Source: an uncultured Bacteroidota bacterium
Lineage (GTDB): Bacteria; Bacteroidota; Rhodothermia; Rhodothermales; Salinibacteraceae
Assembly: GCA_913056185.1 (NCBI GenBank)
Contig: CAJXLV010000003.1
Span: forward strand, 62,001-126,000
Direction: 5' to 3'
DNA length: 64,000 bases
Shown piece by piece: positions 35,009 to 51,782 of this stretch. The position numbers and the translations under genes are program-made. Below the pieces are notes generated by a model. That model worked only from the letters and a program-made list of their open reading frames with translations. It was not told the DNA's origin and did no database searches. Position 1 is the stretch's first letter; each line of letters begins with the position of its first letter.

Positions 35009-35080
35009 GGTGAATGTAGAGAAGTCAGTGATGGGAACGGGTGTCGGGTACGACGGCCGTGCGGCCGGGAGCACTCGATC

Positions 35081-35165: not shown

Positions 35166-35553
35166 GCTGAAGGGAACAGCCGCCCTGGGGGGGCGATGCG
35201 GGCTGAAGCCCTGCAGAGCTCTGTGCGCCGAGGGCCAACAGTGCGCCGAGGGCCAACAGACACTCCGGTCCGGCCAAGAAAGGCATCTCTCGGTGGGGGT
35301 CGCTGGGAGGGATTCATCTGGTTTGCCCTTCCCGGCCGGTCCGAAGTCTACTCTTGCTCCTACAGTGGGTCGGATTATTTTGGGTGGATCTCCCCCAATG
35401 TCTCACCTAAGGTGTTCTCGTTTTTGGGTGCATCTCCAAGCCGCCTAATGAATACTCTCGCATCCTAACGAAAAAGAGATCAACAGGCGGAGGTCTATTT
35501 GAGCCGTCGTATGGGCGAATTTTTTGTCGCGACTTTTCAACGATCTGCTCGAC

Positions 35554-35583
35554 AGTGTACACCAATGTCCGCAAATAACGCAA
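35554..35583 (-). promoter_or_regulatory. Putative susC promoter
   Basis: On the minus strand, TTGCGT (35583-35578), an 18-bp spacer, then TACACT (35559-35554). The TTG begins 16 bp after the LacI-type palindrome, the same geometry as at two other island promoters. The -10 match is modest. Confidence 0.4.
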
Positions 35584-35599
35584 GGAGATTCTTGTTTTT

Positions 35600-35611
35600 G
35601 GGACCGCTTCC
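35600..35611 (-). promoter_or_regulatory. LacI-type operator upstream of susC
   Basis: GGAAGCGGTCCC read on the minus strand. It is one of four near-identical palindromes in the window and matches the general LacI/GalR half-site layout GGAANCGNTTCC with a central CG. Confidence 0.6.
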
Positions 35612-35669
35612 AAGCGGGGTGCAGAGCCGTGGTCGTGACCGCACGGGCCCTCTCCTCCCCCACTCTTTT

Positions 35670-36293
35670 TCAGCCTTTCACCCCAATCTGGCGGAGCACC
35701 GGGTCCGGGCAGCCGGTCCACTCCGCAACAAACTGGTTCCCCTGGTACCGCAGGTCGTCCATGCCCATCTCCGAGCTAAAGAAGCCGGACGCCGTGAGGT
35801 CGCGGAGGCTGCTGAAAAACTCCACCCCGGGCTCCATCTCCGGCGGAGCCGCCTCCGGCCACGCGATGTCATCGAGCAGGGCCTGCTGCTGCGCCTCGCT
35901 GCACTCCACAAAGAGGGCGTCGTGACGGTCGAGGCAGGTGTAATCGACCCACGCGAGCCCGCCCCGAAACGCCACCTGCTGCGCGTCGCGGTCGGGCAGG
36001 TGCTCGTCGGTCAAGATAAAGTCGATGAAGGCCGGCACCCCCGCATCTGTGGCACTGCCGGAGCGGTCGTCGGCCGGAATGATCCAGTCGGTGAGGGCGC
36101 GCACGGTCTCAAGCTCGTGGTCGGTAAAGAGCCGGACGTCGTAGTCGTCGGGCGCCGGCTGGGTGGTCGCGCGCTGGGCCTTCCGGTCGCGGGCCTGCTG
36201 GACCTCCTCGGCGGTGCATGCCACACTAAAGGTAGGCGCAGCCGCCATCAGGGCCATCATTTTGAGAGCGTCGCGGCGGTTCAGGTCACTCAT
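35670..36293 (-). CDS. Gluconate 2-dehydrogenase subunit 3-family protein (partner of the GMC oxidoreductase)
   Basis: The start at 36293 (MSDLNRRDALKMM) gives 207 residues with a twin-arginine motif at 6-7. A lipobox-like FSVAC ending at Cys26 suggests Tat export and lipidation. The body is helical with the family pattern around LTDWIIPADDRSGSATDAGVP. Such subunits assist export or assembly of membrane-associated flavin dehydrogenases that oxidise gluconate or sugars, including glucoside 3-dehydrogenases. The gene follows the GMC oxidoreductase on the same strand. No cytochrome c subunit is encoded nearby. Confidence 0.85.
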   Translation of the reverse strand: MSDLNRRDALKMMALMAAAPTFSVACTAEEVQQARDRKAQRATTQPAPDDYDVRLFTDHELETVRALTDWIIPADDRSGSATDAGVPAFIDFILTDEHLPDRDAQQVAFRGGLAWVDYTCLDRHDALFVECSEAQQQALLDDIAWPEAAPPEMEPGVEFFSSLRDLTASGFFSSEMGMDDLRYQGNQFVAEWTGCPDPVLRQIGVKG

Positions 36294-36589
36294 GGTTTCG
36301 GGGAAAAAATTGGAAGCTGCCGTCGTGCAGGTCGTCGTGCAGGTCGTGAATCGAGGGCGCAGGTAATCCAAGTGGCGGGGTACAGACGTTTTGCCATGGG
36401 CGACGGCGGACCGCGGTCTGTCGTCCGCCCTCGGCTCGAATAACGCCAGGGAGGTCGCAACTTGGGGGAAGTGGATGCCGGGAGTGTCGCGTATTTTGTG
36501 TCAGAAAAATAAACAACACGAAACACGCAACCCCGACCGGAGCCGAACGGGGCCCCCGGCGGCCCCTCCCCGAGGCATCGCCGCCATCG

Positions 36590-38323
36590 TCACAGGTTGC
36601 CCTTCGTGCGCTGGTCGATGATATACTCGGAGGTGCGCATCGAGAGGGCGAGGATGGTCCAGGTCGGGTTCTTATGGGGCATGGACGTAAACGGCCCCGC
36701 ATCGGCCACGAACAGGTTGTCCACGTCGTGCGCCTGGCACTGCGCATTGAGCACCGACGCGTCCGGGTCCGTGCCCATGCGGGTCACGCCGGCCTCGTGG
36801 ATAATTTCGCCCGGCATGGTGATGCCGTAGCCGTCCTCCTTGCTGGGCACCGACCCGAGGGGCTCGGCCCCGGCGGCCCGCAGAATTTCGCGTCCCTTTT
36901 CTTGCATGTGCTTCACCTGCAGGTACTCTTCCTCCCTCCAGGAGTGGTGGAAGCGGAGGACCGGAATGCCGTACTCGTCCCGCACGTCCGGGTCGATCTC
37001 ACAGTAGTTCTCCCGGTGGGCAATCGACTCGCCCCGACCCGACATCCCGACGGTGGCTCCGTAGAAGCGCCGATAGTCCTTTTTGAGCTGGCGGCCGTAG
37101 CCCCCGCCGCCTTTGCGCTTCGTCTCTTCGTCGCCGGGAAACAGCCCGTTGAGCGTCTGGATGCCACTTCCGAAGCCGTAGCCGGGCATGCCGCGCCCGC
37201 CCCACAGCTCAAAGTGGTAGCCCCGCGGAAAGTCGAGATCCTGATCGTAGGCCCACCAGGGGATGTAGGAGTGCATGCCCCCCACGCCGTCGCAGTTGTG
37301 GGCCGGCTGGTCCATCAGCTGCGGGGCCACGCCCATGACCGTTGATCCCGTCGAGTCCATGAGGTAGCGCCCCACGGCATCGCTGGAATTGGCCAGGCCG
37401 TTGGGGTGCTGGCGGGAGGTAGAGTTGAGGAGGAGGCGGGCCGATTCGCACGCACTGGCCGCCAGGACAACGACGTCGGCCTTCACCTTGTACTCGCGGC
37501 GGCTTTGGGTATGGACGTACGAGACGCCCGTGGCCCGGCCCTCCGCGTCGGTGGTCACCTCGCGGGCCATCGCGTGAGGAATCAGCGTCGCGTTGCCCGT
37601 CTGGAGGGCGGGGTCGAGCAGCACCGGCGGCGCCGAAAAGTTCGACCGCGTCGTGCAGCCACGGTTGCACTGCGCGCAGTAGTGGCAGGGCGCCCGGCCG
37701 TTGTGCTGCTCCGTCAGGATGGAGAGGCGGGAGGGAATGACGGGCACGCCGACGGCCTCCGCCCCCTGCCCGATCAGCTTCTCGTAGCAGCGGGGCTCGG
37801 GCGGGTCCATGAAGATGCCGTCGGGGGAATTGTAGAACTTCTCCTCCGAGCCAAAGAGGCCCACCAGCCGGTCGACCCGGTCGTAGTACGGCTTCAGGTC
37901 TGCGTAATCGATGGGCCAGTCGTCGCCGTAGCCGTCCACACTCCGCCCGTTGAAGTCATCCGGCCCGAAGCGCAACGAGATGCGCCCCCAGTGGTGCGTA
38001 CGCCCCCCGAGCATGCGGGCGCGGAACCACCGCCAGTTCGTCTCTTCGTCCGTGGTGTACGGCTCCCCGTCGATGTCCCATCCGCCAAGGCATGCGTCCA
38101 TCTCGCCGAAGGGGCGCGCCCGCGTGGAGGCACCGCGGCGGGGAGATGCGTAGTTCCAGTCAAACATCGCCCCGTCGTCCTGCACGTTCCATTCTGGACC
38201 CGCTTCCAGCACCACCACGCGGGCCCCGGCTTCCGCCAGCACCTTTGCGGCCATGCTCCCGCCTGCACCGGAGCCGACGATGCATACATCATAGGTCTCA
38301 GGGTCTTCTTGAATCTGCGGCAT
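36590..38323 (-). CDS. GMC-family FAD-dependent sugar/alcohol dehydrogenase
   Basis: The 577-residue protein begins with the FAD-binding GSGAGG at 17-22. It carries GRTHHWGRISLR, a Cys-rich CHYCAQCNRGC loop and the C-terminal GMC motif MPHKNPTWTILAL with nearby HEAGVTRMGTDP. Family members of this type, paired with a subunit-3 protein, oxidise glycosides or polyols and pass electrons to the respiratory chain. In this gene context, 3-keto-glycoside formation is the likeliest role, by inference. It has no signal peptide and probably travels with its Tat-exported partner. Upstream lies the divergent region with two LacI-type operators. Confidence 0.88.
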   Translation of the reverse strand: MPQIQEDPETYDVCIVGSGAGGSMAAKVLAEAGARVVVLEAGPEWNVQDDGAMFDWNYASPRRGASTRARPFGEMDACLGGWDIDGEPYTTDEETNWRWFRARMLGGRTHHWGRISLRFGPDDFNGRSVDGYGDDWPIDYADLKPYYDRVDRLVGLFGSEEKFYNSPDGIFMDPPEPRCYEKLIGQGAEAVGVPVIPSRLSILTEQHNGRAPCHYCAQCNRGCTTRSNFSAPPVLLDPALQTGNATLIPHAMAREVTTDAEGRATGVSYVHTQSRREYKVKADVVVLAASACESARLLLNSTSRQHPNGLANSSDAVGRYLMDSTGSTVMGVAPQLMDQPAHNCDGVGGMHSYIPWWAYDQDLDFPRGYHFELWGGRGMPGYGFGSGIQTLNGLFPGDEETKRKGGGGYGRQLKKDYRRFYGATVGMSGRGESIAHRENYCEIDPDVRDEYGIPVLRFHHSWREEEYLQVKHMQEKGREILRAAGAEPLGSVPSKEDGYGITMPGEIIHEAGVTRMGTDPDASVLNAQCQAHDVDNLFVADAGPFTSMPHKNPTWTILALSMRTSEYIIDQRTKGNL

Positions 38324-38428
38324 ACGGAGAAGAAAGCGATGTGGCGGAAGGGAACGTCGAGAATGTAAGCAGGGGGGAGCCGCAGACGCAATGCCGTCTT
38401 TTGTCTCAGGGCATCAAACCGGATGTTT

Positions 38429-38440
38429 GGAAGCGGTTCC
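38429..38440 (+). promoter_or_regulatory. LacI-type operator 1 in the GMC / NagB-fusion divergent region
   Basis: GGAAGCGGTTCC, flanked by TTT and AGA, reading toward the plus-strand NagB-deacetylase gene. It lies 28 bp from the second copy, close to a whole number of helix turns (2.7). Confidence 0.6.
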
Positions 38441-38456
38441 AGACATTTTCGGGATT

Positions 38457-38468
38457 GGAAGCGGTCCC
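38457..38468 (+). promoter_or_regulatory. LacI-type operator 2 in the GMC / NagB-fusion divergent region
   Basis: GGAAGCGGTCCC, identical to the susC-leader site. It ends 15 bp before the TTGTGA box of the putative promoter. Confidence 0.6.
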
Positions 38469-38483
38469 GAATTTCTCGTCGTA

Positions 38484-38512
38484 TTGTGACGATGGTCCCC
38501 GTCGTCTATCAT
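38484..38512 (+). promoter_or_regulatory. Putative promoter of the NagB-deacetylase-led operon
   Basis: TTGTGA (38484-38489), a 17-bp spacer, then TATCAT (38507-38512), resembling the -35/-10 pattern, about 80 bp before the start codon. Confidence 0.45.
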
Positions 38513-38592
38513 GCTCGGTGCGAGCAGCCGATCTCCCCGAGCGGTTCTGCTCTGCCCTTCCCCCGCTGTTTCTGAACTGCCGCCACTGCGTC

Positions 38593-40539
38593 ATGGGTTT
38601 TTCTGCCCCCGCCCCCGACTCTGCCTCGCCGACCGACACGAAAAACGAGCGGGTCGACACCCTCATCTTCGAGACCCCGGCCGAGATGGCGCACCGCGTG
38701 GCCCGGCGCGTCGCTACGCTCATCGAAGAAAAGCAGGCCGTCCACCAGCAGGCCGTCCTGGGCCTGCCCACGGGCTCGACCCCCGTCGGCGTGTACCAGG
38801 AGCTGATCCGGATGCACGCGGAGGAGGGGCTCGACTTCTCGAATGTGGTGACGTTCAACCTCGACGAGTACTACCCCATGGCGCCCGAGAGCCTGCAGAG
38901 CTATCACCGGTTCATGGAGGAGAACTTCTTCAAGCACGTCAACGTCCCCGACGAGCAGATCCACATTCCGCGGGGCGACCTTCCCCCGGCGGCCATCGAC
39001 CGCCACTGCGTGGAGTACGAGCATCAGATCGAACAGGCCGGGGGCATCGATCTCATGCTGCTCGGCATCGGGCGCTCCGGGCACGTGGGCTTCAACGAGC
39101 CGGGCTCCGGGCGCCACACCCGCACTCGCCTGGTCATTCTCGACGAGATTACGCGCAAGGATGCCGCGAGCGCTTTCTTTGGCAAAGAGAACGTGCCGCA
39201 GGAGGCGGTTACGATGGGCGTCGGCACCATTCTCGACTGCGAAGAGGTCCTCCTCATGGCCACCGGGGAGCACAAGGCCCCCATCGTGCGGCGGGCCGTA
39301 GAGGAGCCCCCCTCCCGGGACGTCACGGCCAGCTACCTCCAAGACCACCCCAACACCACCTTCTACCTCGACCGCGCGGCCGCCGTCGACCTTACACGCA
39401 AAAAAATGCCCTGGCGGGTCCGCGAGGTCGACTGGACGGACAAAAAGGCCGAGCGTGCGGTCATCTGGCTGTCCCAGACCCTCAATACCCCCATCCCCCG
39501 CCTCGAGGCCTCCGACTACTACCAGAACCAGTTGCACAGCCTGGTCCACCGCTACGACCACGTTGACGACCTGGCCCACGAGGTCTTCGAGGCCTTGCGC
39601 CGCCGTATCACCTACCCCCACGATCTCCCCTCCAACGAGCGCATCCTTCTGTTCAGCCCGCACCCAGACGATGATGTGATCTCGATGGGGGGCATGTTCG
39701 ACACGCTCGTGGCGAACGACAACGACGTTACCGTCTCGTACATGACGAACGGCTCGGTGGCGGTCTTTGACGCTGACGTGCGGCGCTACCTCCGCTTCAT
39801 CGGCCTCAGCGGCGATGCGCTGAACATGAGCACGGACGCCCTCTCCGGCTTCCGCGAGCGCCGCGCTGAGATCGAAACCTTTTTCGCGGAAAAGGACCCG
39901 GCCGAGGTGGACCCGCCGGAGGTGCAAGCCCTCAAGGCGCACATTCGGTACGGGGAGGCCATTGCGGCGATCGAGGTGCTCGGGCTGGACGCCGACCACG
40001 CCGCGTTTTTGGACATGCCCTTTTACAAGACGGGGCGCGTCCGCAAAGATCCCATCTCGGAGGCGGACGTGGAGGTCGTGCATGATCTGCTGACGACAGT
40101 CGCGCCCACCCACATCTTTGTGGCGGGCGACCTGTCCGACCCCCACGGCACCCACCGCATGTGCTACAAGGCCATCAAGCAGGCCCTCCGCCGCTACAAC
40201 GAGGCCGCCGCGCCGCCGGCCGACGAGGGCGAGGCCTCCAATGCCTCGCGCCCCCGCCCGCTCGTGTGGCTCTACCGCGGAGCCTGGCAGGAGTGGCCGC
40301 TCCACGAGGCCGACGTCTTTGTGCCGCTCTCCAAGGCGGGCCTCGACCGCAAGGTAGAGGCCATCTTCAAGCACGAGAGCCAGAAGGACCGGGCGATGTT
40401 TCCGGGCGCCTACGACGAACGGGAGTTTTGGGAACGGGCCCGCGATCGCAACCGCGCCACGGCTGACGCCCTCAACGGCCTGGGGCTCCCGGAATTCTAC
40501 GCCGCAGAGGCCTTTGTCACGACGTACGATATGGACTGA
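38593..40539 (+). CDS. Glucosamine-6-phosphate deaminase-like / PIG-L (LmbE) deacetylase fusion
   Basis: The ATG at 38593 gives 648 residues. The NagB-like half (about 20-290) has LPTGSTPVGVYQEL and FNLDEYYP with the catalytic Asp91. In GRSGHVGFNEPGS, His164 and Glu169 are kept but the usual Asp two residues before the His is Ser162. The C-terminal half (about 350-648) is a PIG-L deacetylase with the zinc motif PHPDDD (His357) and DPHGTHR (516-522). Fusions of this type are common in Bacteroidota. They suggest coupled deacetylation and deamination of an amino-sugar phosphate or related compound. It is the first gene of a seven-gene plus-strand operon. Confidence 0.9.
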   Translation: MGFSAPAPDSASPTDTKNERVDTLIFETPAEMAHRVARRVATLIEEKQAVHQQAVLGLPTGSTPVGVYQELIRMHAEEGLDFSNVVTFNLDEYYPMAPESLQSYHRFMEENFFKHVNVPDEQIHIPRGDLPPAAIDRHCVEYEHQIEQAGGIDLMLLGIGRSGHVGFNEPGSGRHTRTRLVILDEITRKDAASAFFGKENVPQEAVTMGVGTILDCEEVLLMATGEHKAPIVRRAVEEPPSRDVTASYLQDHPNTTFYLDRAAAVDLTRKKMPWRVREVDWTDKKAERAVIWLSQTLNTPIPRLEASDYYQNQLHSLVHRYDHVDDLAHEVFEALRRRITYPHDLPSNERILLFSPHPDDDVISMGGMFDTLVANDNDVTVSYMTNGSVAVFDADVRRYLRFIGLSGDALNMSTDALSGFRERRAEIETFFAEKDPAEVDPPEVQALKAHIRYGEAIAAIEVLGLDADHAAFLDMPFYKTGRVRKDPISEADVEVVHDLLTTVAPTHIFVAGDLSDPHGTHRMCYKAIKQALRRYNEAAAPPADEGEASNASRPRPLVWLYRGAWQEWPLHEADVFVPLSKAGLDRKVEAIFKHESQKDRAMFPGAYDEREFWERARDRNRATADALNGLGLPEFYAAEAFVTTYDMD

Positions 40540-40648
40540 GGCCCCGCCCCCAGTTCTCTGCCCCTACGGCCCACACGCCCCCTCCCTGAGGCCCCACCGC
40601 CTCCCGGCTGCATGCCGCCGCCCCTCTTTCCCAGCCCGCCCCCCTCCC

Positions 40649-41947
40649 ATGAAGCGCACGATCCAAGCCCGCCTCAGCGCCATGATGTTCCTGGAGTTCT
40701 TCGTCTGGGGCGCCTGGTACACAACCATTGCCGTCACCATGACGGCCCACGGGATGGAGGGGCTCACCCACTGGCCGTTTACGGTCAACCCCATCGCGGC
40801 CCTCGTCGCGCCCTTCTTTGTCGGCCTCATCGCCGATCGCTACTTCCCCACCCAGTCGGTCCTCGGTGTGCTGCACCTCCTCGGGGCGGCGTTCATGTTT
40901 GTCGCCCCCTCCGTCATCGGGTATCCGCTCCTCTTTATCCTGGCGCTGCTCGCCTACAACCTGTGCTTCATGCCAACAATTAGCCTGACCAATACGCTGG
41001 CATTCCACAACATGACGGAGCAGGAATCGCAGTTCCCGGTGATTCGCGTCTTCGGAACGGTTGGGTGGATCGTGGCCGGACTGCTCGTGAGCTACCTCGG
41101 GGGCTACTTTGTGCCCGCCGGGGCCTCGGGCGCCCTCCCGGAAGAGACCACGTTCCCGCTCTACCTGACGGCCACCATCAGCGCGGTCTACGGGCTCTAC
41201 AGCTTTACCCTGCCGCACACCCCGCCCCCGGCGGAGGGCGAAACGGTCTCGGTGCGCGACATCCTGGGCCTCGATGCCCTGAAAACGCTGGGCTCGCCCT
41301 CGTTCTATGTCTTTCTCCTAAGCTCTTTCCTGATCTCTATCCCCCTGGCGGCCTACTACAACTTCACCCAGACGTTCTTGGCCGACACGGGCTTTCAGCA
41401 AATCGCGGCGGTGCAGACCATCGGGCAGGCCTCGGAGGTGATCTTTATGCTGCTGATGCCGATGTTCTTTGTGCGCCTCGGTGTAAAGTGGATGCTGGGC
41501 GTGGGCATGTTTGCCTGGGTGCTCCGCTACGGCCTCTTCGCCTTGGGGGCGCCGGACATGGTCACCTGGATGATTCTCTCCGGCATTGCCCTCCACGGCA
41601 TCTGCTACGATTTCTTTTTCGTGGCCGGACAAATTTACGTGGACAAGAAGGCCAGCCCGAAGGTGCGGGGGCAGGCCCAGGGGCTCATTGTGCTCCTGAC
41701 CTACGGCGCGGGCATGCTGATTGGGGCGCAGGTGGCGGGCTGGCTCTTCAATCTCATCCGCACCGGCGAGCAGTTGACGCTCAACCAGTGGGTCCACTTC
41801 TGGTGGGTCCCGGCGGCCTTTGCCGGCGCTGTGCTCGTCTTCTTCGTGTTCTTCTTCGACGATGAGGTGGAGGTCGGCGGCGAATCGGTCGCCTCGGTCA
41901 TGGGGGCCGAGACGGAAGACGACGCCCCGGAAAATATTGCGGCCTGA
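40649..41947 (+). CDS. MFS transporter of the nucleoside:H+ symporter-like group
   Basis: This 432-residue, roughly 12-helix protein has the family opening LEFFVWGAWYTTIAVTM and the long central loop preceding IRVFGTVGWIVAGL. In Bacteroidota, transporters of this group are often encoded beside sugar-oxidoreductase and epimerase genes and are annotated as nucleoside permeases. Here an oligosaccharide or keto-sugar substrate is more plausible from context. It lies 109 bp after the NagB fusion, in the same operon. Confidence 0.85.
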   Translation: MKRTIQARLSAMMFLEFFVWGAWYTTIAVTMTAHGMEGLTHWPFTVNPIAALVAPFFVGLIADRYFPTQSVLGVLHLLGAAFMFVAPSVIGYPLLFILALLAYNLCFMPTISLTNTLAFHNMTEQESQFPVIRVFGTVGWIVAGLLVSYLGGYFVPAGASGALPEETTFPLYLTATISAVYGLYSFTLPHTPPPAEGETVSVRDILGLDALKTLGSPSFYVFLLSSFLISIPLAAYYNFTQTFLADTGFQQIAAVQTIGQASEVIFMLLMPMFFVRLGVKWMLGVGMFAWVLRYGLFALGAPDMVTWMILSGIALHGICYDFFFVAGQIYVDKKASPKVRGQAQGLIVLLTYGAGMLIGAQVAGWLFNLIRTGEQLTLNQWVHFWWVPAAFAGAVLVFFVFFFDDEVEVGGESVASVMGAETEDDAPENIAA

Positions 41948-42004
41948 GACGCGCCCGGCATGCCTCGCTCCTCTTCCCTGCCTTCGCATCTCCCCGCCCC
42001 GCCC

Positions 42005-42982
42005 ATGCCTCGTTCCGATCGACGCTCGTTTCTGAAGGCCTCCGCCGCCCTCACGCTCGGGGCCGCCCTGCCTGCCTGGGGCTGTGCCCCCGACGACGCC
42101 CCCGACGACGCCCCCGACGCGCCCCCGCAGGAACCGGGCGCTGCCGATACGCCCCTCTACCGCATCTCCCTGGCGCAGTGGTCGCTGCACCGCGCCCTCT
42201 TCGACGGCTCCCTCGATCCCCTCGACTTTCCACGCACGGCCCGCGAGACGTTCGACCTCGGGGCGGTCGAGTACGTCAATCGCTTCTTTATGGAGCGGGC
42301 CCGGGACCGGGACTACCTGCACGCGATGCGGAGGCGGGCCGAGGAGGCGGGCGTGGAGAGCCTGCTCATCATGTGCGACGGCGAGGGCGCCCTCGGGCAC
42401 CCCGAGGCGGCGAAGCGCACCGAAGCCGTGGACAACCACCGCAAGTGGATCGAGGCCGCGGCGGTCCTGGGGTGCCACTCCATTCGCGTCAATGCCCAAA
42501 CGCTGGGCAAAGGCCCCCCCGCTGACCAGCGCAAGCGGGCGGCCGATGGGCTCCGCCGCCTCACCGAGTACGCCGCCGCGCAGGACCTCAACGTACTCGT
42601 CGAGAACCACGGCGGCCTCTCCTCCAACGGCGCGTGGCTCGCCGATGTCATGGAGACGGTGGCCCACGCGCGCTGCGGCACGCTGCCGGATTTTGGAAAC
42701 TGGGACCTCCGCGAGGGGGAGGCCTACGATCCGTACGCGGGGGTGCGCGCGCTGATGCCGCACGCCAGGGCCGTCAGTGCCAAGGCGCTCGCCTTCGACG
42801 ATGAAGGACGGGAGACGACGCTGGACTACACCCGGCTCCTGCGCATTGTGCTGGAGCACGGGTATCGCGGCTACGTGGGCATCGAATACGAAGGCGACTC
42901 CCTAAGCGAAACGGACGGCATTCGGGCCACCCAGCGGCTCCTCCAAGATGTCCGCTCCCGGCTCGCCCCCGAGTTCTCCTGA
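42005..42982 (+). CDS. Tat-exported lipoprotein, sugar-phosphate isomerase/epimerase-like TIM barrel
   Basis: The 325-residue protein starts MPRSDRRSFLKASAAL with a twin-arginine motif at 6-7 and a lipobox ending at Cys27 (AWGC). An acidic spacer of repeated PDDA units (42089-42127 in the DNA) follows, then a xylose-isomerase-like barrel (about 50-315). Metal-ligand candidates are visible in VNRFFMERA, LVENHGGLSS, PDFGNWD and VGIEYEGDS. Homologues act as epimerases or lyases on keto-sugars. Export suggests a periplasmic role, unlike the cytoplasmic paralogue at 46549-47553. Confidence 0.82.
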   Translation: MPRSDRRSFLKASAALTLGAALPAWGCAPDDAPDDAPDAPPQEPGAADTPLYRISLAQWSLHRALFDGSLDPLDFPRTARETFDLGAVEYVNRFFMERARDRDYLHAMRRRAEEAGVESLLIMCDGEGALGHPEAAKRTEAVDNHRKWIEAAAVLGCHSIRVNAQTLGKGPPADQRKRAADGLRRLTEYAAAQDLNVLVENHGGLSSNGAWLADVMETVAHARCGTLPDFGNWDLREGEAYDPYAGVRALMPHARAVSAKALAFDDEGRETTLDYTRLLRIVLEHGYRGYVGIEYEGDSLSETDGIRATQRLLQDVRSRLAPEFS

Positions 42983-43033
42983 CCGCCGGGCCGTCTGCGC
43001 ATTCCTTCTTTTTTCCCTGCCCCCCTTTCCCTC

Positions 43034-44209
43034 ATGGCTCTCGATCGTCCCCTTCGGTACGGCATGGTCGGGGGCGGCCCCGGTGCCTTCATTGGAGCTG
43101 TGCACCGCTCCGCCGCTGCCCTCGACGGCAATCTGGACCTGGTTGCCGGCGCGTTCTCCTCGGATCCCGAAACGTCGCATCGTCAGGGCGCGGCCCTTCA
43201 CCTCGCGCCCGACCGGGTCTACGACACGTACGCGCAGATGGCTGCGGCGGAGGCCGACCGCCCCGACGGCATCGACGTCGTCTCCATTGTTACGCCCAAC
43301 CACCTCCACTACGACGTCGCCTGTGCCTTTGTCGACCGCGGCATTCATGTCATCTGCGACAAGCCGATGACGACCACCCTTGACGACGCGGAGGCCCTGT
43401 GTCGGCGCGTGGAAGCGCAGGATGTGGTCTTCTGCCTCACCCACACCTATGCCGGCTACCCACTGGTGAAACAGGCCCGTGCCCTTGTGCAGCAGGGCCG
43501 CCTCGGCGAGCTGCGCAAGGTGGTGGTTGCGTATCCGCAGGGCTGGCTCAACCGGCGCCTCGAGGCCGACGACAACAAGCAGGCCGCCTGGCGGACCGAC
43601 CCGGCCCTGGCCGGCGCCGGGGCGCTGGGCGACATTGGCACGCATGCCGAGCACCTGGCCCGGTACGTCACGGGCCGGGCCCTGGAGCGCCTGTGCGCCG
43701 ATGTGGGAACCGTGGTGAAGGGGCGCGCCGTGGACGACGATGCCAGCATCCTGGCCCGCTACGAGGGCGGGGTGCGCGGCCTCATCCACTGCTCGCAGAT
43801 CGCGGCCGGGGAGGAAAACAACCTTCGCCTCCGCGTCTACGGCTCGGAGGCGGGGCTGGCCTGGGACCAGGAGGACCCGCACCGCCTCACGCTCCTCTCC
43901 GATGTCAACGGCGACGCGCCGCAGCAGGTCTACACCCACGGCCGCGCCTCCCTCGCCGACTCGGTCCAGCCGTTCCTGCGCACCCCGCAGGGCCACCCCG
44001 AGGGCTTTATCGAGGCCTTCGCCAACCTGTACCGCAGCGCGGCCCACGCCATCGCGGCCCACGAGGCGGGCGTCGCCCCCGCCCCCTGGGCGCAGGACGT
44101 CCCGACCGTGCAGGACGGGGCGCGCGGTGTCCACTTCATCCAGGCGGCACTCCGAAGCAGCAAGAACGAAATGTGGGTCGATGCCTCGTATGCCCCTCCC
44201 GGTGCCTAA
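43034..44209 (+). CDS. Gfo/Idh/MocA-family oxidoreductase (cytoplasmic)
   Basis: In 391 residues, an N-terminal Rossmann fold with MVGGGPGAF (11-19) leads to the family motif DKP at 109-111, a variant of the usual EKP with the active-site Lys. A C-terminal alpha/beta domain contains [13 protein letters not shown], whose Asp and His are typical catalytic residues. Enzymes of this family oxidise or reduce sugars at C2 to C6 or interconvert 3-keto-sugars using bound NAD(P). No signal peptide. It lies 51 bp after the exported epimerase in the same operon. Confidence 0.9.
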
Positions 44210-44279
44210 CCGATCCGGGCGGCCCCTCCACTGCCCCCTCCCTACACGGTTTCCCTCCCACAGTCTCTGCCGACACGCC

Positions 44280-45011
44280 ATGCCTTCTCCTGCTCGTGCC
44301 TCTCTGGTTCTGTTCGCGCTCGTGTCCCTTGCCCTATGCGCCCCGGCAAGGGCCCAGGACGCACCGCCGCCCCCCAACACCCTCACCGCAGAGGAGCGTG
44401 CCGACGGCTGGACCTTGCTCTTTGATGGATCCACCCCGGACGGGTGGCGCGGATACGGCCAGGCCGACTTTCCGGACCGGGGCTGGTCCGTCGAGGACGG
44501 CGTCCTTACGGTCGACGGCGCGGGCGGCGACATCATTACGACCGACACGTACGGCGACTTTGTGCTGCGGCTTGAGTGGAAAATCGCCAAGGGGGGCAAC
44601 AGCGGCATCTTCTACCGGGCCCTGGAGCAACCCGACCGGGCCATCTACTGGTCGGCTCCGGAAATGCAGATCCTGGACAATGCCCACCACCCCGATGCGC
44701 TCCGCGGCGAGAACGGCAACCGGAAGGCGGGGTCGCTCTACGACCTCATTCCCGCTGACCCGCAGCCCTTCACCGGGCACGGGGAGTGGCAGGAGGCGAT
44801 GATTGTGGTGGAGGGCGGCCACGTGGAGCACTGGCTCAACGGCCGCAAGGTGCTGGCGTACGAGCTGTGGACCCCGGCGTGGTACCGGATGCTTCGCGAC
44901 AGTAAGTTTCGGAGCCACCCCGAGTTTGGGGACGCGCGGACGGGCCACATCGGCCTTCAAGAACACGGAACGACGGCGCACTTCCGCAACATCAAGATCA
45001 AGAGGCTCTGA
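44280..45011 (+). CDS. Secreted DUF1080 / 3-keto-disaccharide hydrolase-family protein
   Basis: This 243-residue protein has a Sec signal peptide (VLFALVSLALCAPARAQ) and a concanavalin-like beta sandwich bearing the family signature: GWTLLFDGSTPDGWRGY, GNSGIFYRA, WSAPEMQILDN and a final HFRNIKIKRL. Recent work assigns this family (PF06439) to hydrolysis of 3-keto-glycosides formed by sugar 3-dehydrogenases. With a GMC dehydrogenase, Gfo/Idh enzymes and epimerases next to it, that role fits well here. Probably periplasmic. Confidence 0.85.
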   Translation: MPSPARASLVLFALVSLALCAPARAQDAPPPPNTLTAEERADGWTLLFDGSTPDGWRGYGQADFPDRGWSVEDGVLTVDGAGGDIITTDTYGDFVLRLEWKIAKGGNSGIFYRALEQPDRAIYWSAPEMQILDNAHHPDALRGENGNRKAGSLYDLIPADPQPFTGHGEWQEAMIVVEGGHVEHWLNGRKVLAYELWTPAWYRMLRDSKFRSHPEFGDARTGHIGLQEHGTTAHFRNIKIKRL

Positions 45012-45071
45012 CCGCAGGCCGTACCTCTGCGTGTCCCGACTCGTGCCCTTCTCCTCTTAAAGCCTCCTCTC

Positions 45072-46484
45072 ATGGACCGACGCATGTTTTTGAAAGGATC
45101 GGCCCTCGCGGCCGCCGGCCTCAGCATTGTGCCCCGCCACGTCTTGGGCGGGCCCGGCTACCAGGCGCCCAGCGACACCCTCAACATTGCCGGCATCGGC
45201 GTGGGGGGGCGCGGCGCCAGCAACCTCAACGCCATGATCTCCGAAAACATCGTCGCGATCTGTGATGTCGACTACCGCCACGTCGACCGCACGCTGCGAA
45301 CCCGCGACGGGGCCGTGGCGGAGCGCTTCGCGGCGCTGCACGAGGCATACGAGCAGGCCGAGCGCTACGCCGACTTTCGCCGGATGTTGGACGACCTGTC
45401 GGGGACGCTCGATGCGGTCGTCGTCTCCACGCCCGACCACCTCCACGCCGTCGCCGCCATGGAGGCCCTGCAGCGAGGCCTGCACGTCTACGTCGAGAAG
45501 CCCCTCACCCGAACCGTGCGGGAGGCGCGGGCGCTCCGGGACGCGGCCGACACGCAAGACGTGGTGACGCAGATGGGCAACCAGGGCCACACCCACCCCG
45601 ACGGACGCCGGGCCATCGAGTGGGTATGGGGTGGGGCCATCGGCACGGTGCAGGAGATCCATGCCTGGACCGACCGCCCCGCCAACTGGTGGCCGCAGGG
45701 CGTCTCTCGCCCCGCCGACTCCATGACGCCGCCCGATGGGCTGCGCTGGGACCTCTTCCTGGGCCCGGCGCCGGACGTCCCCTACCACACGGCCTATCAC
45801 CCCTTCCGCTGGCGCGGATGGCTCGACTACGGCACGGGCGCCCTCGGCGATATGGGCACGCACATCCTCGACCACGCGGTGTGGGCCCTCGACCTCGGCG
45901 CGCCCACGGAGGTATGGGGCTCCTCGAATGGCTTCGGCCGAGACCACGCCGAACGCGTCTCTTGGCCCTCCGTCGAAACTGTCCACTACACCTTTGGACG
46001 GGGCGGCCGCCCCCCGGTGACGGTGACCTGGTACGACGGCGGCCTGCTTCCGCCTCGCCCCCACGCCCTCCCGCCGGACGTGCCCCTGGTGCGCACCCTC
46101 GGCCCGGACGAAGACGGCCCGGCGCCGTCCTCCGGCGGGGCAATTTGGGTGGGAGACGAGGGCGTGCTGATGCACGACACCTACGGCCGCAATCCGCGCC
46201 TCTACCCCACGGAGCTGGAGGCGACCGCCGCCGACGCCCCGCAGCGGCTCCCCCGCATTGACACCAGCCACCAGATGAACTGGGTCGAGGCCTGCAAGGG
46301 CCGGGCGGTCGCGTCGTGTCCCTTCGACTACGCCGCCCCCCTCACCGAGACGCTCCTCTTGGGAAGCGTCGCCCTTCAGGCCGGCGTTCCCCTCCGGTAC
46401 GACCCCCGCTCCATGACCATCCCCAACGCGCCGGCGGCCGAACCGTACCTGCGCCGCGACGCCCGGGGCGAATGGTCGCTGTAG
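45072..46484 (+). CDS. Tat-exported Gfo/Idh/MocA-family oxidoreductase
   Basis: The 470-residue protein begins [16 protein letters not shown], a compact twin-arginine signal. A Rossmann fold ([11 protein letters not shown] at 41-51), EKP at 142-144 and the [12 protein letters not shown] loop follow, as does the catalytic-domain motif [13 protein letters not shown]. Tat export lets such enzymes leave the cell already folded with a tightly bound nicotinamide cofactor, as in glucose-fructose oxidoreductase. It probably acts on keto- or oxidised sugars in the periplasm and pairs with the exported DUF1080 hydrolase 60 bp upstream. Confidence 0.9.
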
Positions 46485-46548
46485 CGCCCCGTCTCCTCGC
46501 CCTCCGTCCCTCCGCAGACGCCCTTCCGCAGACGCCCCTCCTCTTCCC

Positions 46549-47553
46549 ATGTCTTCCCGCCCCATCACCCTCTTCACCGGACAGTGGGCCGACGTGCCCC
46601 TCGCCTCCCTCGCCGAGAAGGCCGCGGCCTGGGGCTACGACGGCCTGGAGCTGGCCTGCAACGGCGACCACTTCGACGTGGCCCGCGCTGTGTCGGACGA
46701 CCACTACGTCCGCCGCAAGCGCGACCTGCTGCACGCACACGACCTCGATGTGTGGGCCCTCAGCCAGCACCTGGTGGGCCAGGCCGTGAGCGACCGCATC
46801 GACGCCCGGCACAAAGAGATCGTGCCCGAGCGGGTGTGGGGCGACGGCGATCCGGACGGGGTGACGCGCCGTGCCATCGAGGAACTGGAGCGCACCGCCG
46901 CCGCGGCCCGCGCCCTCGGCGTCGATGTGGTCACCGGCTTCACCGGCTCGCCCGTCTGGCCCCTCCTCTATGCCTTCCCGCCCACCCCGCAACCGATGAT
47001 TGAGGAGGGGTACGCAGCGTTTGCCGACCAGTGGCGGCCCCTGCTGGATGCGTTTGCGACGGAAGAGATCTGCTTTGCGCTGGAGGTGCACCCGACCGAA
47101 ATTGCCTTTGACCTCAGCACCGCCCGGCGTACGCTCCGCGCCCTCGACGACCACCCCGCCTTCGCCTTCAACTACGACCCCAGCCACTTTGGCTACCAGG
47201 GCGTCGACTACCTCGCGTTCCTTGACGCGTTTCCCGATCGCATCGCACACGTCCACATGAAAGATGTCTGGTGGGCCGACGGGCGGCGACCGGCCGGCGT
47301 CTTTGGCGGCCACCTGCCCTTTGGGCATGCGGACCGCTACTGGGACTTCCGCTCCATCGGGCGTGGCAAAATCGACTTTGAGGCCATCCTCCGCCGCCTG
47401 CACCGCCACGGCTACGACGGGCCTCTCTCCGTGGAGTGGGAGGACGAGGGCATGGCCCGCGAGCACGGGGCTGAGGAGGCGTGTGCCCGCGTGCGGGCCC
47501 TCGACTTTCCCCCCGCCGATGCGGGCTTCGAGGAGGCATTCGGGGAGGCGTAG
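46549..47553 (+). CDS. Cytoplasmic sugar-phosphate isomerase/epimerase-like TIM barrel
   Basis: The 334 residues contain a xylose-isomerase-like barrel with visible metal-site motifs: [13 protein letters not shown]-like ligands, [22 protein letters not shown] and LSVEWEDEG. It has no signal. The protein is the cytoplasmic counterpart of the exported barrel at 42005-42982. Related enzymes epimerise or isomerise keto-sugars in 3-keto-glycoside pathways. It is the last gene of the plus-strand operon and is convergent with the kinase gene. Confidence 0.88.
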
Positions 47554-47606
47554 CGCAGGGGCCGGCCGTGTGCCCGGCGGCGCGTTCGGCGCGCCCCGCG
47601 GCCACC

Positions 47607-48512
47607 TCACGCCCCGAGGCGGTGCGCCCGCCGAAGGGCGCCCACCACCGGGGCCTCCTGGAGGCGCGAGACCGACGCCTGCGGCAGGCAGGCCCCGAGG
47701 GCCTGCCGGAGCGCCCGGGCGTACGGCTCGCTGCGAAGCATGCCCCCGAGCAGAGCGACCCGCGGGGCGGGCTCTTCGGCCGCTCCCACCACCCAGGCCG
47801 CCTGGCGGGCAAGCGCCGCGGTCTGCGACGCCAAAATCTCCTCCGCCACCGCATCGCCCGCCGCGGCCGCCGCGCCCACGAGGGGCGCCACCTCCGCCAG
47901 GGGCGCCTCCTCCCGGTAGGTCCACCGAAAGAGGTCCGCTCGCGAGTCAATGCCGTAGCGCTCCTGCACGCGGTCCCGCAGCCCCGTGGGCGGCCCCCCG
48001 TCATACGCCGCCGCCACCGCCCGCAGCGCCGCCCGGCCCACCGCGTGGCCACTGCCCACATCGCCCAGGCGGTGCCCCCAGCCGCCCGCCCGGCGCGTGG
48101 TGCCGCCGCGCCCGCGCCCGAGCACCACCGAGCCGGTGCCCGCAATCACAATGGCGCCCCCCTCCGCCCCAAACGCCGCCTCCAGCGCAATGGTCGCATC
48201 GTGCGTCACCGCCACGCGGACCCGCTCCGCCGCGTCCGCGAGGGCCGTGCGGAGCCGCTCCTGCAGCGCCGCCTGCTCGTCCGCCCGGCCGGCGCCGGCC
48301 ACGCCCGCACACACCGCCACGCGGCACCCCGGTCCCGGCAACGCCTCACGGATGAGGCCTTCGAGCGTCTCCACAACCGCGTCGGGCCCCACCCGCTGCA
48401 GGTTGGCGCCCGGGCCGCGCCGCTCCGTCCGCCCCGTCCCGGGCGCCCGCTCCGCGAGCAAATGCGTCTTCGTTCCCCCTACGTCCAGTCCGATGATGAA
48501 TTGCTGTGACAC
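47607..48512 (-). CDS. BadF/BadG-type ATPase family kinase (N-acetylglucosamine kinase-like)
   Basis: This 301-residue protein has the ASKHA fold: phosphate-1 motif GLDVGGTKTHLLA (8-20), phosphate-2/adenosine elements IAGTGSVVLGRG and GGWGHRLGDVGSG, and a C-terminal LLGGMLRSEP. The family includes eukaryotic-type GlcNAc kinase and bacterial amino-sugar kinases. With GH20 and a NagB-like enzyme in the same locus, phosphorylation of imported GlcNAc or a derivative is the best guess. It is the last gene of the CBM9-SSS-kinase run, 115 bp after the transporter. Confidence 0.82.
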   Translation of the reverse strand: MSQQFIIGLDVGGTKTHLLAERAPGTGRTERRGPGANLQRVGPDAVVETLEGLIREALPGPGCRVAVCAGVAGAGRADEQAALQERLRTALADAAERVRVAVTHDATIALEAAFGAEGGAIVIAGTGSVVLGRGRGGTTRRAGGWGHRLGDVGSGHAVGRAALRAVAAAYDGGPPTGLRDRVQERYGIDSRADLFRWTYREEAPLAEVAPLVGAAAAAGDAVAEEILASQTAALARQAAWVVGAAEEPAPRVALLGGMLRSEPYARALRQALGACLPQASVSRLQEAPVVGALRRAHRLGA

Positions 48513-48627
48513 ACGCCTGGGTCATTCGTGAAAGCGACTCGCGAGGGCCTCCGGGGCCTGAGGGGACGGGCACGATGGGAGGCGCGGGAAGCCCGGGCCA
48601 CGCCCCCTCCGTCCGTACGCCGGGGGC

Positions 48628-50469
48628 TCAGGGCCCGCGCTGATCGGCCTCCGTCGCCCGCGTCTCCAGGGGGGCGGCGTACGCCCGCAGGTCGTGCCAC
48701 AAAAAGGCCGCCGCCCCCGCCGCTACCGCGAGGAGAGCCGCGCCCCAGGCCGTCCAGCCCAAAAGCAGGTAGCCCGTGCCAAAGAGCGTGCTGTACACGA
48801 GCACCACGCCCACGGCCCAGTCGAGCGCCAGGCGCCCCAGGCCCGCGTCCGGCGTCACCTCCGGATTGCGCGCCGCCACCGGCGCCCAGCCCGGCCCGCC
48901 GGGGTGGACCTGTTGGTAGAAGCGATCGAGCGTCGCCGCCTCCGTCGGGCGCGTCAGCACCGTCACGCCCAGCCACACCGCCGTCGTAAACCCCACGACC
49001 GCGTACAGATTGAGCGGAAACTCCGCCTGCAGCCCCGGCACCTGCACCCCAAAGGCATTTAGCACGAGCGCCGTCCCCGCAAGCCCAATCGGCGCCAGGG
49101 TGGCGGCCATCTCGCTCCACGCATTCACGCGCCACCAGTACCAGCGCAGGATGAGGACCAGCCCCAGCCCGGCCGATGCCGAGAGGAGCAGCCCCCACGC
49201 CTCCGCGATGGTGTCGAGGAAAAGCGTCACGCCCAGGCTCAGGAGCGCCACCGCCACCGTGAGGATCCGCGAGACGCGCACGTAATGGGCTTCGCTCGCG
49301 TCCGGGCGCACGAAGCGACGCCAAAAGTCGTTGACGAGGTACGAGACGCCCCAGTTGAGCTGCGTAGAGACCGTGCTCATAAACGCCGCCAGGAACGCCG
49401 CAAAGAGGAGCCCCAGCAGCCCAGGCGGCAGCACCTCCTTCATCACCAGCACAAAGCCGGCCCGGGGCTCCGCGAGGTCGGGGTAGAGGACGAGTGCCGA
49501 CAGCGCCACCACGATCCACGGCCACGGGCGGAGGCAAAAGTGAGCGATGGTGTACCAGAGCGTCGCGAAGAGGGCGTGTCGTTCATCCTTGGCACTCATC
49601 ATGCGCTGCGCGATGTAGCCCCCGCCGCCCGGCTCCGCCCCGGGGTACCAGCTGGCCCACCACTGCACGCCCGCGTACGCCGCAAAGGCAAGCGCCGACA
49701 GCGCAAACGTGCCCGCCCCGTCCGCCGCCCCCCCGATGGTCGGCAGCAGGTGAAACGTCTCGTCCGGCAGCTGCGCCCGCAGGCCCGCCACGCCGCCGAT
49801 TTCCGGCCGGTCGAGCACCCAGACCGCCAGCAGCACCGTGCCCCCCATCGCAATCACAAACTGGAAGAGGTCCGTCACCATCACCCCCCAGAGCCCCGAG
49901 AGCATTGCGTACACCGCCACGCCCAGAATCAGCCCGCCCGTCACCACGAGGGCCGCACTGGCCTCCTGCCCCAGCACCCCCACGCCCGCCCGTCCAAACA
50001 GCGTGAGATCCGGAAAGAGCCGGTCGATGACCGTCTCCATCGCCAGCGACACCCACCCGATGATGAGAACATTGAGCAGGAGGCCAAAGAAGAGCGCCTT
50101 GATCCCTCGCAGCCAGGCCGCCGGCGCGCCGCTGTAGCGCACCTCCACGAACTCCACGTCCGTCAGCACCCCGCTGCGGCGCCAGAGGCGCGCAAAGAAA
50201 AAGACCGTCAGCATCCCGCCAAGGGCCGCGTTCCACCAGAGCCAGTTGCCCGCGATGCCGTCCCGCGCCACAATCTCCGTCACCAGCAGGGGCGTGTCCA
50301 CGGCAAAGGTCGTGGCCACCATGCTCGTGCCCGCGAGCCACCACGGCATCGAGCGGCCCGACAGGAAGAACTCGGCGGTGTCCTCGCCCGCCCGTTGGTA
50401 GAAGTAGAGCGCAATGCCAAACGAAAGCGCCAGGTAGCCGGCGACGAAGAGCCAGTCGAGAGGGGTCAC
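48628..50469 (-). CDS. Sodium:solute symporter (SSS family)
   Basis: In 613 residues and about 14 helices, SSS features include LSFGIALYFYQRAGEDTAEF with the FFLSGRSMPWW loop, and a Na+-site-like FMSTVSTQLNWGVSYLVND. A long C-terminal tail is typical of sugar-type members. It probably imports the sugar phosphorylated by the neighbouring kinase. The gene lies 52 bp downstream of the CBM9-like lipoprotein gene. Confidence 0.9.
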   Translation of the reverse strand: MTPLDWLFVAGYLALSFGIALYFYQRAGEDTAEFFLSGRSMPWWLAGTSMVATTFAVDTPLLVTEIVARDGIAGNWLWWNAALGGMLTVFFFARLWRRSGVLTDVEFVEVRYSGAPAAWLRGIKALFFGLLLNVLIIGWVSLAMETVIDRLFPDLTLFGRAGVGVLGQEASAALVVTGGLILGVAVYAMLSGLWGVMVTDLFQFVIAMGGTVLLAVWVLDRPEIGGVAGLRAQLPDETFHLLPTIGGAADGAGTFALSALAFAAYAGVQWWASWYPGAEPGGGGYIAQRMMSAKDERHALFATLWYTIAHFCLRPWPWIVVALSALVLYPDLAEPRAGFVLVMKEVLPPGLLGLLFAAFLAAFMSTVSTQLNWGVSYLVNDFWRRFVRPDASEAHYVRVSRILTVAVALLSLGVTLFLDTIAEAWGLLLSASAGLGLVLILRWYWWRVNAWSEMAATLAPIGLAGTALVLNAFGVQVPGLQAEFPLNLYAVVGFTTAVWLGVTVLTRPTEAATLDRFYQQVHPGGPGWAPVAARNPEVTPDAGLGRLALDWAVGVVLVYSTLFGTGYLLLGWTAWGAALLAVAAGAAAFLWHDLRAYAAPLETRATEADQRGP

Positions 50470-50521
50470 GGGGAGAGGAGCGTCGGGGAGACATCAGAGA
50501 CGAACAGGCACCCGCACGCGA

Positions 50522-51667
50522 CTACTCGTCCGTCGTCGTCCAGGTTTTGCCGTCGCTGCGGAGATGGACGGTGGTGCCCTCCGGGCCGGGCGTTGCGATC
50601 TCGTAGGTGGTCTGGGTGGCCTGGAGGGTGGGGGCGAAGTCGAGCCCCTCGGGCGCGATGTCGGCGGCGTCGAGGGCCGCGAGCGTCGTGGCGTACCGGC
50701 CCGTCTCGGCCCGGTGCTGCCGCTGCCGGTGGTAGAGGCGCCGCAGGGCCCACTTGAGGCGGGCCGTCTCGGGCACCGACACCTCCACGGGCGCCGTGCC
50801 GGCGGGGGCGTCTACAAACTGGACGAGGCCCCACCGCTCCGGGCGGTGCATGTCGATGACGCCCTGGGGGGACCACGTCCAGTTGTCCTCGGGGTGGGCG
50901 CGCGTGGTGTCGAGGTCTTTTCGGTAGCGACCGTTCTCGACGGTGAGCGGCCAGTCGACCCGCGAAAAATTGAGCCGCCACTGCTCGCCGTCCTGCGGGG
51001 GACGGCCCTCGGGGGCGGCCTCCTCCAGCACCGTCCACGGCAGCCACAGCTCCACGGTCCATCCATCATCGGTGTCCGACGGATCGTTGAGCGTGCCCTC
51101 GATCTGCACGGCGACCTGCACGTCGCGCACGTCCCAGGCATCGACGGCCGGGCCCCCGTCGCGGTAGGGCGTGAGCAGCATCAGGTCCCACACCGTTTCG
51201 AGGGCATTGACCTCCACCTCGTAGTAGTTGTGCGTGGTGCCGTTGGGGTCGATAAAGACCTCAAAGTCGTCGTCGTAATACACCACGGTGTCTCGCTGCG
51301 TGAGGGTGCCCCAGACGTGCGGCTCCTGCAGGCGGGCGGCCACGTAGAGGCCGGTGTCGTCCCAGAGCATCTTGGCACGGGTGCGGTGGCGGGGCGGGGG
51401 CGCCTCCGGGCCGCGGATGTCGCCGAAGTCGGCCGTCCAGGGCGCCTCCTGCCAGCCGGGCTCCGCGAGGCGCCCGTCCACCTGCACGGGCCCGGGCGTG
51501 CGGTAGAGGGCGTAGGTGCGGGGCGCAAACGGGAGCTCCGCCCCGTCGGGGTCGGCCCACTGCGCGACCGGAGACGTCGGCTCGGTGCAGCCCCCGCCCA
51601 AAAGCCACAGGCCGCCGGTGAGCACGAACAGCGAAATCCATCGAGCAGGGGCACGAAGCGTCACCAT
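50522..51667 (-). CDS. Lipoprotein with carbohydrate-binding family 9-like domain
   Basis: The start at 51667 yields 381 residues with a lipobox ending at Cys27 (LLGGGC). A CBM9/DOMON-like beta sandwich spans about 55-270 (motifs VDGRLAEPGWQEAPW, ARLQEPHVWG, FEVFIDPNGTTHNYYE, WTVELWLPW). A helical C-terminal segment follows. Such proteins bind sugars at the cell surface; no catalytic residues are evident. Upstream lie a promoter-like pair and a LacI-type operator, so this gene probably opens the CBM9-SSS-kinase operon. Confidence 0.82.
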   Translation of the reverse strand: MVTLRAPARWISLFVLTGGLWLLGGGCTEPTSPVAQWADPDGAELPFAPRTYALYRTPGPVQVDGRLAEPGWQEAPWTADFGDIRGPEAPPPRHRTRAKMLWDDTGLYVAARLQEPHVWGTLTQRDTVVYYDDDFEVFIDPNGTTHNYYEVEVNALETVWDLMLLTPYRDGGPAVDAWDVRDVQVAVQIEGTLNDPSDTDDGWTVELWLPWTVLEEAAPEGRPPQDGEQWRLNFSRVDWPLTVENGRYRKDLDTTRAHPEDNWTWSPQGVIDMHRPERWGLVQFVDAPAGTAPVEVSVPETARLKWALRRLYHRQRQHRAETGRYATTLAALDAADIAPEGLDFAPTLQATQTTYEIATPGPEGTTVHLRSDGKTWTTTDE

Positions 51668-51725
51668 ACCAGGGCGGCCGTGGGGAGAGTGCGGGGGCGG
51701 ACGGGGCGTGATTTTCAACCCTCAA

Positions 51726-51754
51726 AGGATAGGCACGGCAGCGCCGTTCCGCAA
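51726..51754 (-). promoter_or_regulatory. Putative promoter of the CBM9-SSS-kinase operon
   Basis: On the minus strand, TTGCGG (51754-51749), 17-bp spacer, TATCCT (51731-51726), about 58 bp before the start codon. Confidence 0.45.
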
Positions 51755-51770
51755 CGCATCCCCCCAATCC

Positions 51771-51782
51771 GGAACCGCTTCC
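51771..51782 (-). promoter_or_regulatory. LacI-type operator upstream of the CBM9-like gene
   Basis: GGAAGCGGTTCC on the minus strand, ending 16 bp before the TTGCGG box. It lies between this gene and the LacI-family regulator gene. Confidence 0.62.

Follow-up and report, generated by a model that had tools for sequence, protein, structure and literature searches.

A LacI-family regulator predicted to act from a conserved upstream position at chitin and N-acetylglucosamine genes of Salinibacteraceae and other Rhodothermia

Introduction

LacI proteins are textbook repressors, and in other Bacteroidota the control of polysaccharide-use operons is held by hybrid two-component, SusR or extracytoplasmic function (ECF)/anti-sigma systems. 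What, then, does a LacI-family protein do beside a SusCD-type locus? The question is raised by a 64,000-nucleotide stretch of DNA (the window) from an uncultured bacterium of the Salinibacteraceae (Rhodothermales, Rhodothermia; GenBank assembly GCA_913056185.1, contig CAJXLV010000003.1, positions 62,001 to 126,000), in which a LacI-family gene (the window LacI) accompanies four copies of a 12-bp palindrome upstream of susC, of a gene for a glucosamine-6-phosphate deaminase-like/deacetylase fusion (NagB-deacetylase) and of a gene for a CBM9-like lipoprotein.

We consider it probable that the window LacI activates a chitin/N-acetylglucosamine (GlcNAc) regulon from about -57. The protein (51897-52928) would bind GGAANCGNTYCC-type palindromes and activate three transcription units: susC-susD-GHL10-GH20, the NagB-deacetylase gene with the genes that follow it, and CBM9-symporter-kinase. 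From the centre of the operator to the -35 TTG there are 21-22 bp; were transcription to start 7 nt past the -10 box, this would put the centre at about -57 to -59. Bound there, the dimer would be a close upstream neighbour of RNA polymerase and could help to recruit the enzyme to promoters that would offer a recognisable -10 box and only a TTG at -35. The window LacI as the reader of these sites, the activating sign and the transcription starts are all inferred from sequence. The ligand is probably GlcNAc, chitobiose or their phosphates.

Operators and promoter boxes in the window

The first-pass annotation of this DNA had placed four intergenic copies of the 12-mer here, all read in the same orientation towards their targets, three of them followed by a TTG box 15, 16 and 16 bp downstream and a TA box 17-18 bp further on. 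All four are exact matches (Table 1): the window holds four exact GGAAGCGGTYCC sites, and no further exact copies, against a mean of 0.03 expected, and 0 of 100 shuffles reach four. Allowing two mismatches removes the excess (29 in the window against 24.06 expected; 20/100 shuffles reach 29), so the signal resides in the exact sites. Their intergenic position holds given a NagB-deacetylase start at 38593, and the boxes and their spacings are as described. The common orientation holds for the four sites of the window but not for relatives, in which both orientations are used; an orientation rule was therefore abandoned, the proximal sites of relatives reading in either direction.

Operators were counted as GGAANCGNTYCC or GGGANCGNTYCC, an even palindrome with a central CG, in keeping with the rule for LacI/GalR operators (PMC4052901). 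Relatives also have tandem operators like the pair before NagB-deacetylase, at distances mostly of 22-23 or 32-33 bp, and the operator before CBM9 is kept in four related genomes (G003, G004, G006, G010).

Co-occurrence of regulator and operator

The assignment of the gene at 51897-52928 to the LacI family is confirmed by PF00356 and PF13377, both above cut-off. PurR, RbsR, CcpA and Lac repressor are among its top matches of known structure; the protein falls below the NCBIfam cut-offs for the ccpA equivalog (TIGR01481, 148.9 bits vs 442.35) and for the catabolite repressor/activator Cra/FruR (NF008452, 71.8 bits vs 385). Its nearest named relatives, at 46-63% identity, are from a Rhodothermus metagenome-assembled genome (MAG), the 'Bacteroidetes' MAGs GSL and QS, and Balneolales, beyond which identity drops to 42% or less; on this ground the source genome would be Salinibacter-like, in keeping with the class Rhodothermia. 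Orthologs, defined by 55% identity or more, are found in 15/60 relatives and are set off by a gap in score from 374 to 184 bits (a split copy in G013 aside); the helix VSRSVVSRVLN is invariant in 10 aligned orthologs. A LacI paralog at another locus (L032, G000 contig C36) lies in an open frame of more than 830 aa, its 85% relative in G001 (L214) in a frame of 363 aa; the long frame may be a fusion or just a frame that happens to stay open.

NagB-deacetylase is matched in 44 of the 60 relatives. In the best 30 of the 44 loci, those examined, the operator lies ahead of the gene in 13/13 genomes with an ortholog of the window LacI (the window's own genome included) and in 0/17 without (Fisher 8e-9; this and the other co-occurrence statistics ignore kinship, related genomes being non-independent trials). 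The 13 include G007, where the locus is cut by a contig end; a fourteenth genome, G013, beyond these 30 loci, also has the operator. Within the window's own family the counts are 8/8 with ortholog vs 0/4 without, and in the genus the NagB-deacetylase gene itself is present in 7/7 genomes with ortholog vs 0/6 without. Operator and spacing are kept where the gene lies away from lacI: 2.6 Mb away in G003, 0.87 Mb in G010, and on other contigs in G004 and G006.

Conservation of the operator-to-promoter spacing

The composite motif, defined as operator, 15-16 bp, TTG, 20-21 bp and TATNNT, was searched in 244 genomes of the class and gave 31 matches in 19 of them, against none for the reversed control; with the spacer shifted to 9-10 or 21-22 bp it was found in 0/244 genomes each, the reversed control of these searches giving one match. 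The first-pass annotation had asked whether the motif recurs before carbohydrate genes at the same distance, and 26/31 composites precede susC (10), NagB-deacetylase (10), CBM9 (5) or GHL10 (1) genes. Two more stand at chitin loci without a readable downstream gene (one at a contig edge beside the GMC gene, the other divergent from the kinase), and three lie elsewhere: downstream of two of these, an ammonium transporter and a nitrite/sulphite reductase are the closest genes identified, and the third has none. Among the 60 relatives, the composite occurs in 12/15 genomes with an ortholog of the window LacI vs 3/45 without (Fisher 1.2e-7). Of four additional genomes of the Rhodothermus group that carry the ortholog, three also have it (G206, G208, G209; not G207), as does G198, whose LacI has only 42% identity.

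The spacing was also scored without the composite, over gene copies with a zero-mismatch site within 420 bp upstream, the site nearest the gene being used where there were several; 68 such rows reduce to 39 with flanks <65% alike. TTG stands at +15/16 in 18 of these 39 non-redundant rows, while the best of 5000 shuffles, at any offset pair, reaches 9. By target, it does so in 8/8 susC rows (one from Balneolales), 2/2 CBM9 rows and 7/9 Rhodothermales NagB rows, the other two having TTG at 14. The rows leave out the susC copies of the window and L172, NagB of L117 and L162, CBM9 of G009, G013, G028, G042, G048, G052 and L115, and most in-operon symporter and kinase copies; the susC site of the window, which does have the spacing, is missing because it lies ~590 bp before the predicted start. 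The window's kinase gene stands behind CBM9 and lacks a site of its own; in G003, G004, G006 and G010 it is set apart and has tandem operators, with a TATACT at the matching distance and TTC replacing TTG. At the kinase, a change in gene order thus seems to have gone along with a change in the sites.

As a candidate for one rule covering all LacI operators of the order, AANCGNTT was searched at that spacing with TATNAT; this looser form has 15 matches in 14/114 genomes, 7 of them already in the chitin set, and no general rule is based on it.

Taken as a whole, the results give good support to the earlier proposal of a LacI regulon whose operators lie upstream, as an activator's would: the operator goes with the regulator, several genera share the spacing, neither of two shifted spacers gives any match, and NagB-deacetylase keeps its site away from lacI.

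Genes at the sites

The genes tied to the sites look most like a chitin/GlcNAc programme (Table 1). The NagB-deacetylase passes its subfamily cut-off (NF002557, 959.7 bits vs 384, residues 11-646 of 648). Its open frame could extend back to 38092; family matches start at about residue 195, near 38674, and alignments to relatives begin around 38593. The BadF-type protein falls below the cut-off of the GlcNAc kinase equivalog NagK_SO3507 (67 bits vs 370) and is called kinase-like only. Operon extents, including that of the genes behind NagB-deacetylase, are predicted from direction and spacing.

Table 1. Predicted genes, operators and promoter boxes discussed in the text (positions in the window)
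Feature	Position	Strand	Basis and remarks
GH20 beta-hexosaminidase	26091..28760	-	PF00728, 307 bits
GHL10 glycoside-hydrolase-like protein	28877..29968	-	Family match
SusD-like lipoprotein	30137..31756	-	Family match
SusC	31883..35008	-	TIGR04056, 650 bits; putative start, ATG before signal peptide
-10-like box TACACT, susC promoter	35554..35559	-	Spacer 18; weakest of three, no fit to TATNNT
-35-like box TTGCGT, susC promoter	35578..35583	-	16 bp past operator; predicted from sequence
Operator GGAAGCGGTCCC, susC operon	35600..35611	-	Exact match; same-spacing counterpart before susC in relatives
GMC oxidoreductase, divergent from NagB-deacetylase	36590..38323	-	Family match; regulation by sites uncertain
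Distal operator GGAAGCGGTTCC, NagB-deacetylase	38429..38440	+	Exact match; 28 bp above proximal site
Proximal operator GGAAGCGGTCCC, NagB-deacetylase	38457..38468	+	Exact match
-35-like box TTGTGA, NagB-deacetylase promoter	38484..38489	+	15 bp past proximal operator
-10-like box TATCAT, NagB-deacetylase promoter	38507..38512	+	Spacer 17; composite-motif match
NagB-deacetylase fusion	38593..40539	+	NF002557
Permease, two isomerase-like, two Gfo/Idh/MocA, 3-keto-disaccharide hydrolase	40514..47553	+	
BadF-type, GlcNAc-kinase-like protein	47607..48512	-	PF01869; closest solved structure, N-acetylmuramic acid (MurNAc)/GlcNAc kinase, E 5e-30
Sodium:solute symporter	48628..50469	-	PF00474, 98 bits
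CBM9-like lipoprotein	50522..51667	-	PF06452, 47 bits
-10-like box TATCCT, CBM9 promoter	51726..51731	-	Spacer 17; composite-motif match
-35-like box TTGCGG, CBM9 promoter	51749..51754	-	16 bp past operator
Operator GGAAGCGGTTCC, CBM9-symporter-kinase genes	51771..51782	-	Exact match
LacI-family regulator, proposed reader of sites	51897..52928	-	PF00356, 56 bits; PF13377, 131 bits

Between the proposed susC promoter and the start codon lie ~545 nt (35008-35554), far more than in the listed relatives, and this long leader contains a short tandem duplication; Rfam matched no RNA family in 34500-53000, the susC leader included. Elsewhere in the window (10600-17820), open frames of 2251 and 2399 aa on opposite strands overlap almost fully, and probably at most one of them is a gene.

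Activation or repression

Activation is the best reading of the sites because upstream sites go with activation for CcpA and, by prediction, for AraQ. Several observations, besides the kinship of the genomes compared, weigh against activation by the window LacI from a fixed distance. The composite occurs in three genomes in which the ortholog was not detected (G002, 62% complete; G032; G046), and a relaxed form of it at a site in G011 that reads away from a susC-like gene (L108), in a genome that gave no LacI match. A zero-mismatch operator before lacI itself was not found in the Rhodothermales loci examined. The TTG spacing is seen in 0/5 GMC-facing, 1/8 kinase and 0/2 symporter sites, and in 0/5 Balneolales NagB sites, which have another arrangement. 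In the susC promoters of G003, G006 and G010 (L065, L071, L195) a degenerate operator-like word, GGAAGCGCATCC, directly follows the -10 TATCAT and could be a repressor site. For AraQ, mutant arrays did not confirm the predicted activation (PMC6882875).

The five non-redundant Balneolales sites before NagB-deacetylase (L118, L119, L120, L125, L127) all have a TATNNT 25-26 bp past the operator.

The sign could also be the opposite: the window LacI may bind these operators and repress from -57, for example through a DNA loop joining tandem operators or by keeping out another activator, until a sugar relieves it. Most characterised local LacI proteins are repressors, which counts in favour of this, as do the tandem operators that are common at chitin loci. 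A precedent is the B. subtilis lev operon, where CcpA acts as a repressor at a site lying upstream (PMC3463425). The fixed distance to -35 and the promoters with a single operator (CBM9 and the window susC) suit activation better, and we regard repression as unlikely.

The same palindrome at a second gene set

The search of the whole genome that the first-pass annotation had called for went against the bare 12-mer as the definition of a regulon. In the window's own genome (3.27 Mb, 79 contigs) there are 13 exact 12-mers vs 0 for the reversed control, and 9/13 are outside the window. Eight of the nine stand beside identified genes of another set: fructose bisphosphatase (FBPase), acetyl-CoA synthetase/FtsH, epimerase/AsnC, phasin/patatin, two pairs of 3-hydroxyacyl-CoA dehydrogenase (3-HCDH) and AMP-ligase, uvrB, and malate synthase. 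For the ninth (L012), the scanned open reading frame gave no family match. Phosphoenolpyruvate carboxykinase has a one-mismatch copy in the same genome. The loci of the second set there are L005, L006, L007, L008, L009, L010, L011, L013 and L028, and the set is a candidate carbon-control regulon of the Cra/CcpA kind.

Five genomes of the genus that lack the window LacI have 38 exact 12-mers. Among the 30 fetched, 18 adjoin the FBPase, 3-HCDH, AsnC/epimerase, uvrB or phasin/patatin genes of that set, 5 are close to weaker matches and 7 have no assigned neighbour. Because 18/30 copies adjoin the same genes in genomes without the window LacI, the second gene set uses the same 12-mer; and because eight copies in the own genome adjoin this conserved set, the bare 12-mer does not define the chitin regulon. 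As a marker it was rejected, being in excess in genomes both with and without the window LacI: over the 60 relatives it occurs 296 times vs 126 for the reversed control, exceeding the control in 43/60 genomes, and in the genus 71 vs 19 times in 7 genomes with the ortholog and 40 vs 10 in 6 without. What the second set lacks is the spacing. In the 78 flanks of the 39 non-window exact sites (all those fetched, from the window's genome and from the five that lack the ortholog, L012 included), TTG stands at 15/16 in two, and the relaxed composite in one, at L108.

The second set is likely read by a LacI paralog encoded on contig C16, going by its distribution. It has orthologs (69-88% identity) in G001, G003-G006, G008 and G012, the seven other genus genomes of this comparison, which left out G007, G009 and G010; G002 and G011 gave no LacI match. 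In G008 (83% complete) the C16 ortholog is the only LacI found. In G011 there is no PF00356 match, and 5/6 fetched sites are of the second-set type; with the genome 83% complete, this was given no weight either way on whether a LacI protein reads the set. In all six 3-HCDH sites examined (L008, L013, L085, L086, L089, L097) the 12-mer is followed at ~15-22 bp by another palindrome, TTAACnnnGTTAA-like, and two regulators may act together there.

That the 12-mer is common to both sets, and that C16 orthologs are present in all seven of the genomes compared, suggests another arrangement, in which the C16 paralog reads every 12-mer, those of the chitin genes included, and the window LacI has other targets. 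G001, G005, G008 and G012, which have the C16 ortholog and no window LacI, also have no composite, although they lack NagB-deacetylase too; outside the genus, the operator is missing from all 17 NagB loci whose genomes lack an ortholog of the window LacI, and the second-regulon sites show the spacing in just one of 78 flanks. We judge this arrangement quite unlikely. As for the idea that the spacing is promoter sequence inherited from a few ancestral promoters and functionally uninformative, many flanks do share ancestry (of 68 rows, 39 are non-redundant), but three different target genes share the spacing and flanks <65% alike keep TTG at 15/16 in 18/39 rows vs a shuffle maximum of 9, which makes it highly improbable.

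With the window LacI taken as an activator of the chitin genes, we tentatively suggest that this Rhodothermia LacI branch may have become a dedicated local activator of polysaccharide-use operons which shares its 12-bp word with a carbon-control paralog, promoter distance rather than operator sequence separating the two regulons. A common operator word need not mean one regulon.

Comparison with known systems

LacI-family activation itself is already known. CytR is a LacI-family protein. In Vibrio cholerae it is described as a positive regulator of chitinases (PMC4581735). No description of a local LacI regulator whose sites before susC, NagB and CBM9 share one activating position across several genera came up in the literature searched, mostly titles and abstract openings with subscription journals thinly covered. 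One operator distance above -35 across several genera would provide a clean natural system for the question of how a LacI dimer and RNA polymerase work together, and would show a possible control of SusCD-type loci in Rhodothermia, which are salt- and heat-loving bacteria.

A close parallel in position is CcpA of Bacillus subtilis at ackA, pta and ilvB: a LacI-family protein with a centrally CG palindrome, for which a site upstream of the -35 means activation (PMC3463425) and is reported 14 bp above it (PMC6882875). CcpA differs in being global, mostly repressing and dependent on HPr-Ser-P, whereas the window LacI would be a local regulator whose susC, NagB and CBM9 sites are all upstream at one distance. 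AraQ/MalR1 of Bifidobacterium breve, also of the LacI type, is predicted to activate eno and pyk from sites 15-16 bp above their -35 (operators are counted as longer words in that paper, so that centres match the window sites only roughly); its targets belong to central metabolism, and other sites lie 33-35 bp above -35 (PMC6882875). Roseithermus sacchariphilus, of the same order (Rhodothermales), has three LacI genes that are induced on xylan alongside nearby glycosidase genes and taken to encode activators (PMC7409140); there, activation is deduced from co-induction, and the substrate is xylan, not chitin. PckR of Rhizobiales is likewise a LacI-family protein for which activation is predicted from operator position (PMC4052901); it is global, acts on central metabolism and is closer in role to the second regulon. 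Among the papers compared, most of the activating LacI proteins named are global, CcpA, AraQ and PckR being examples.

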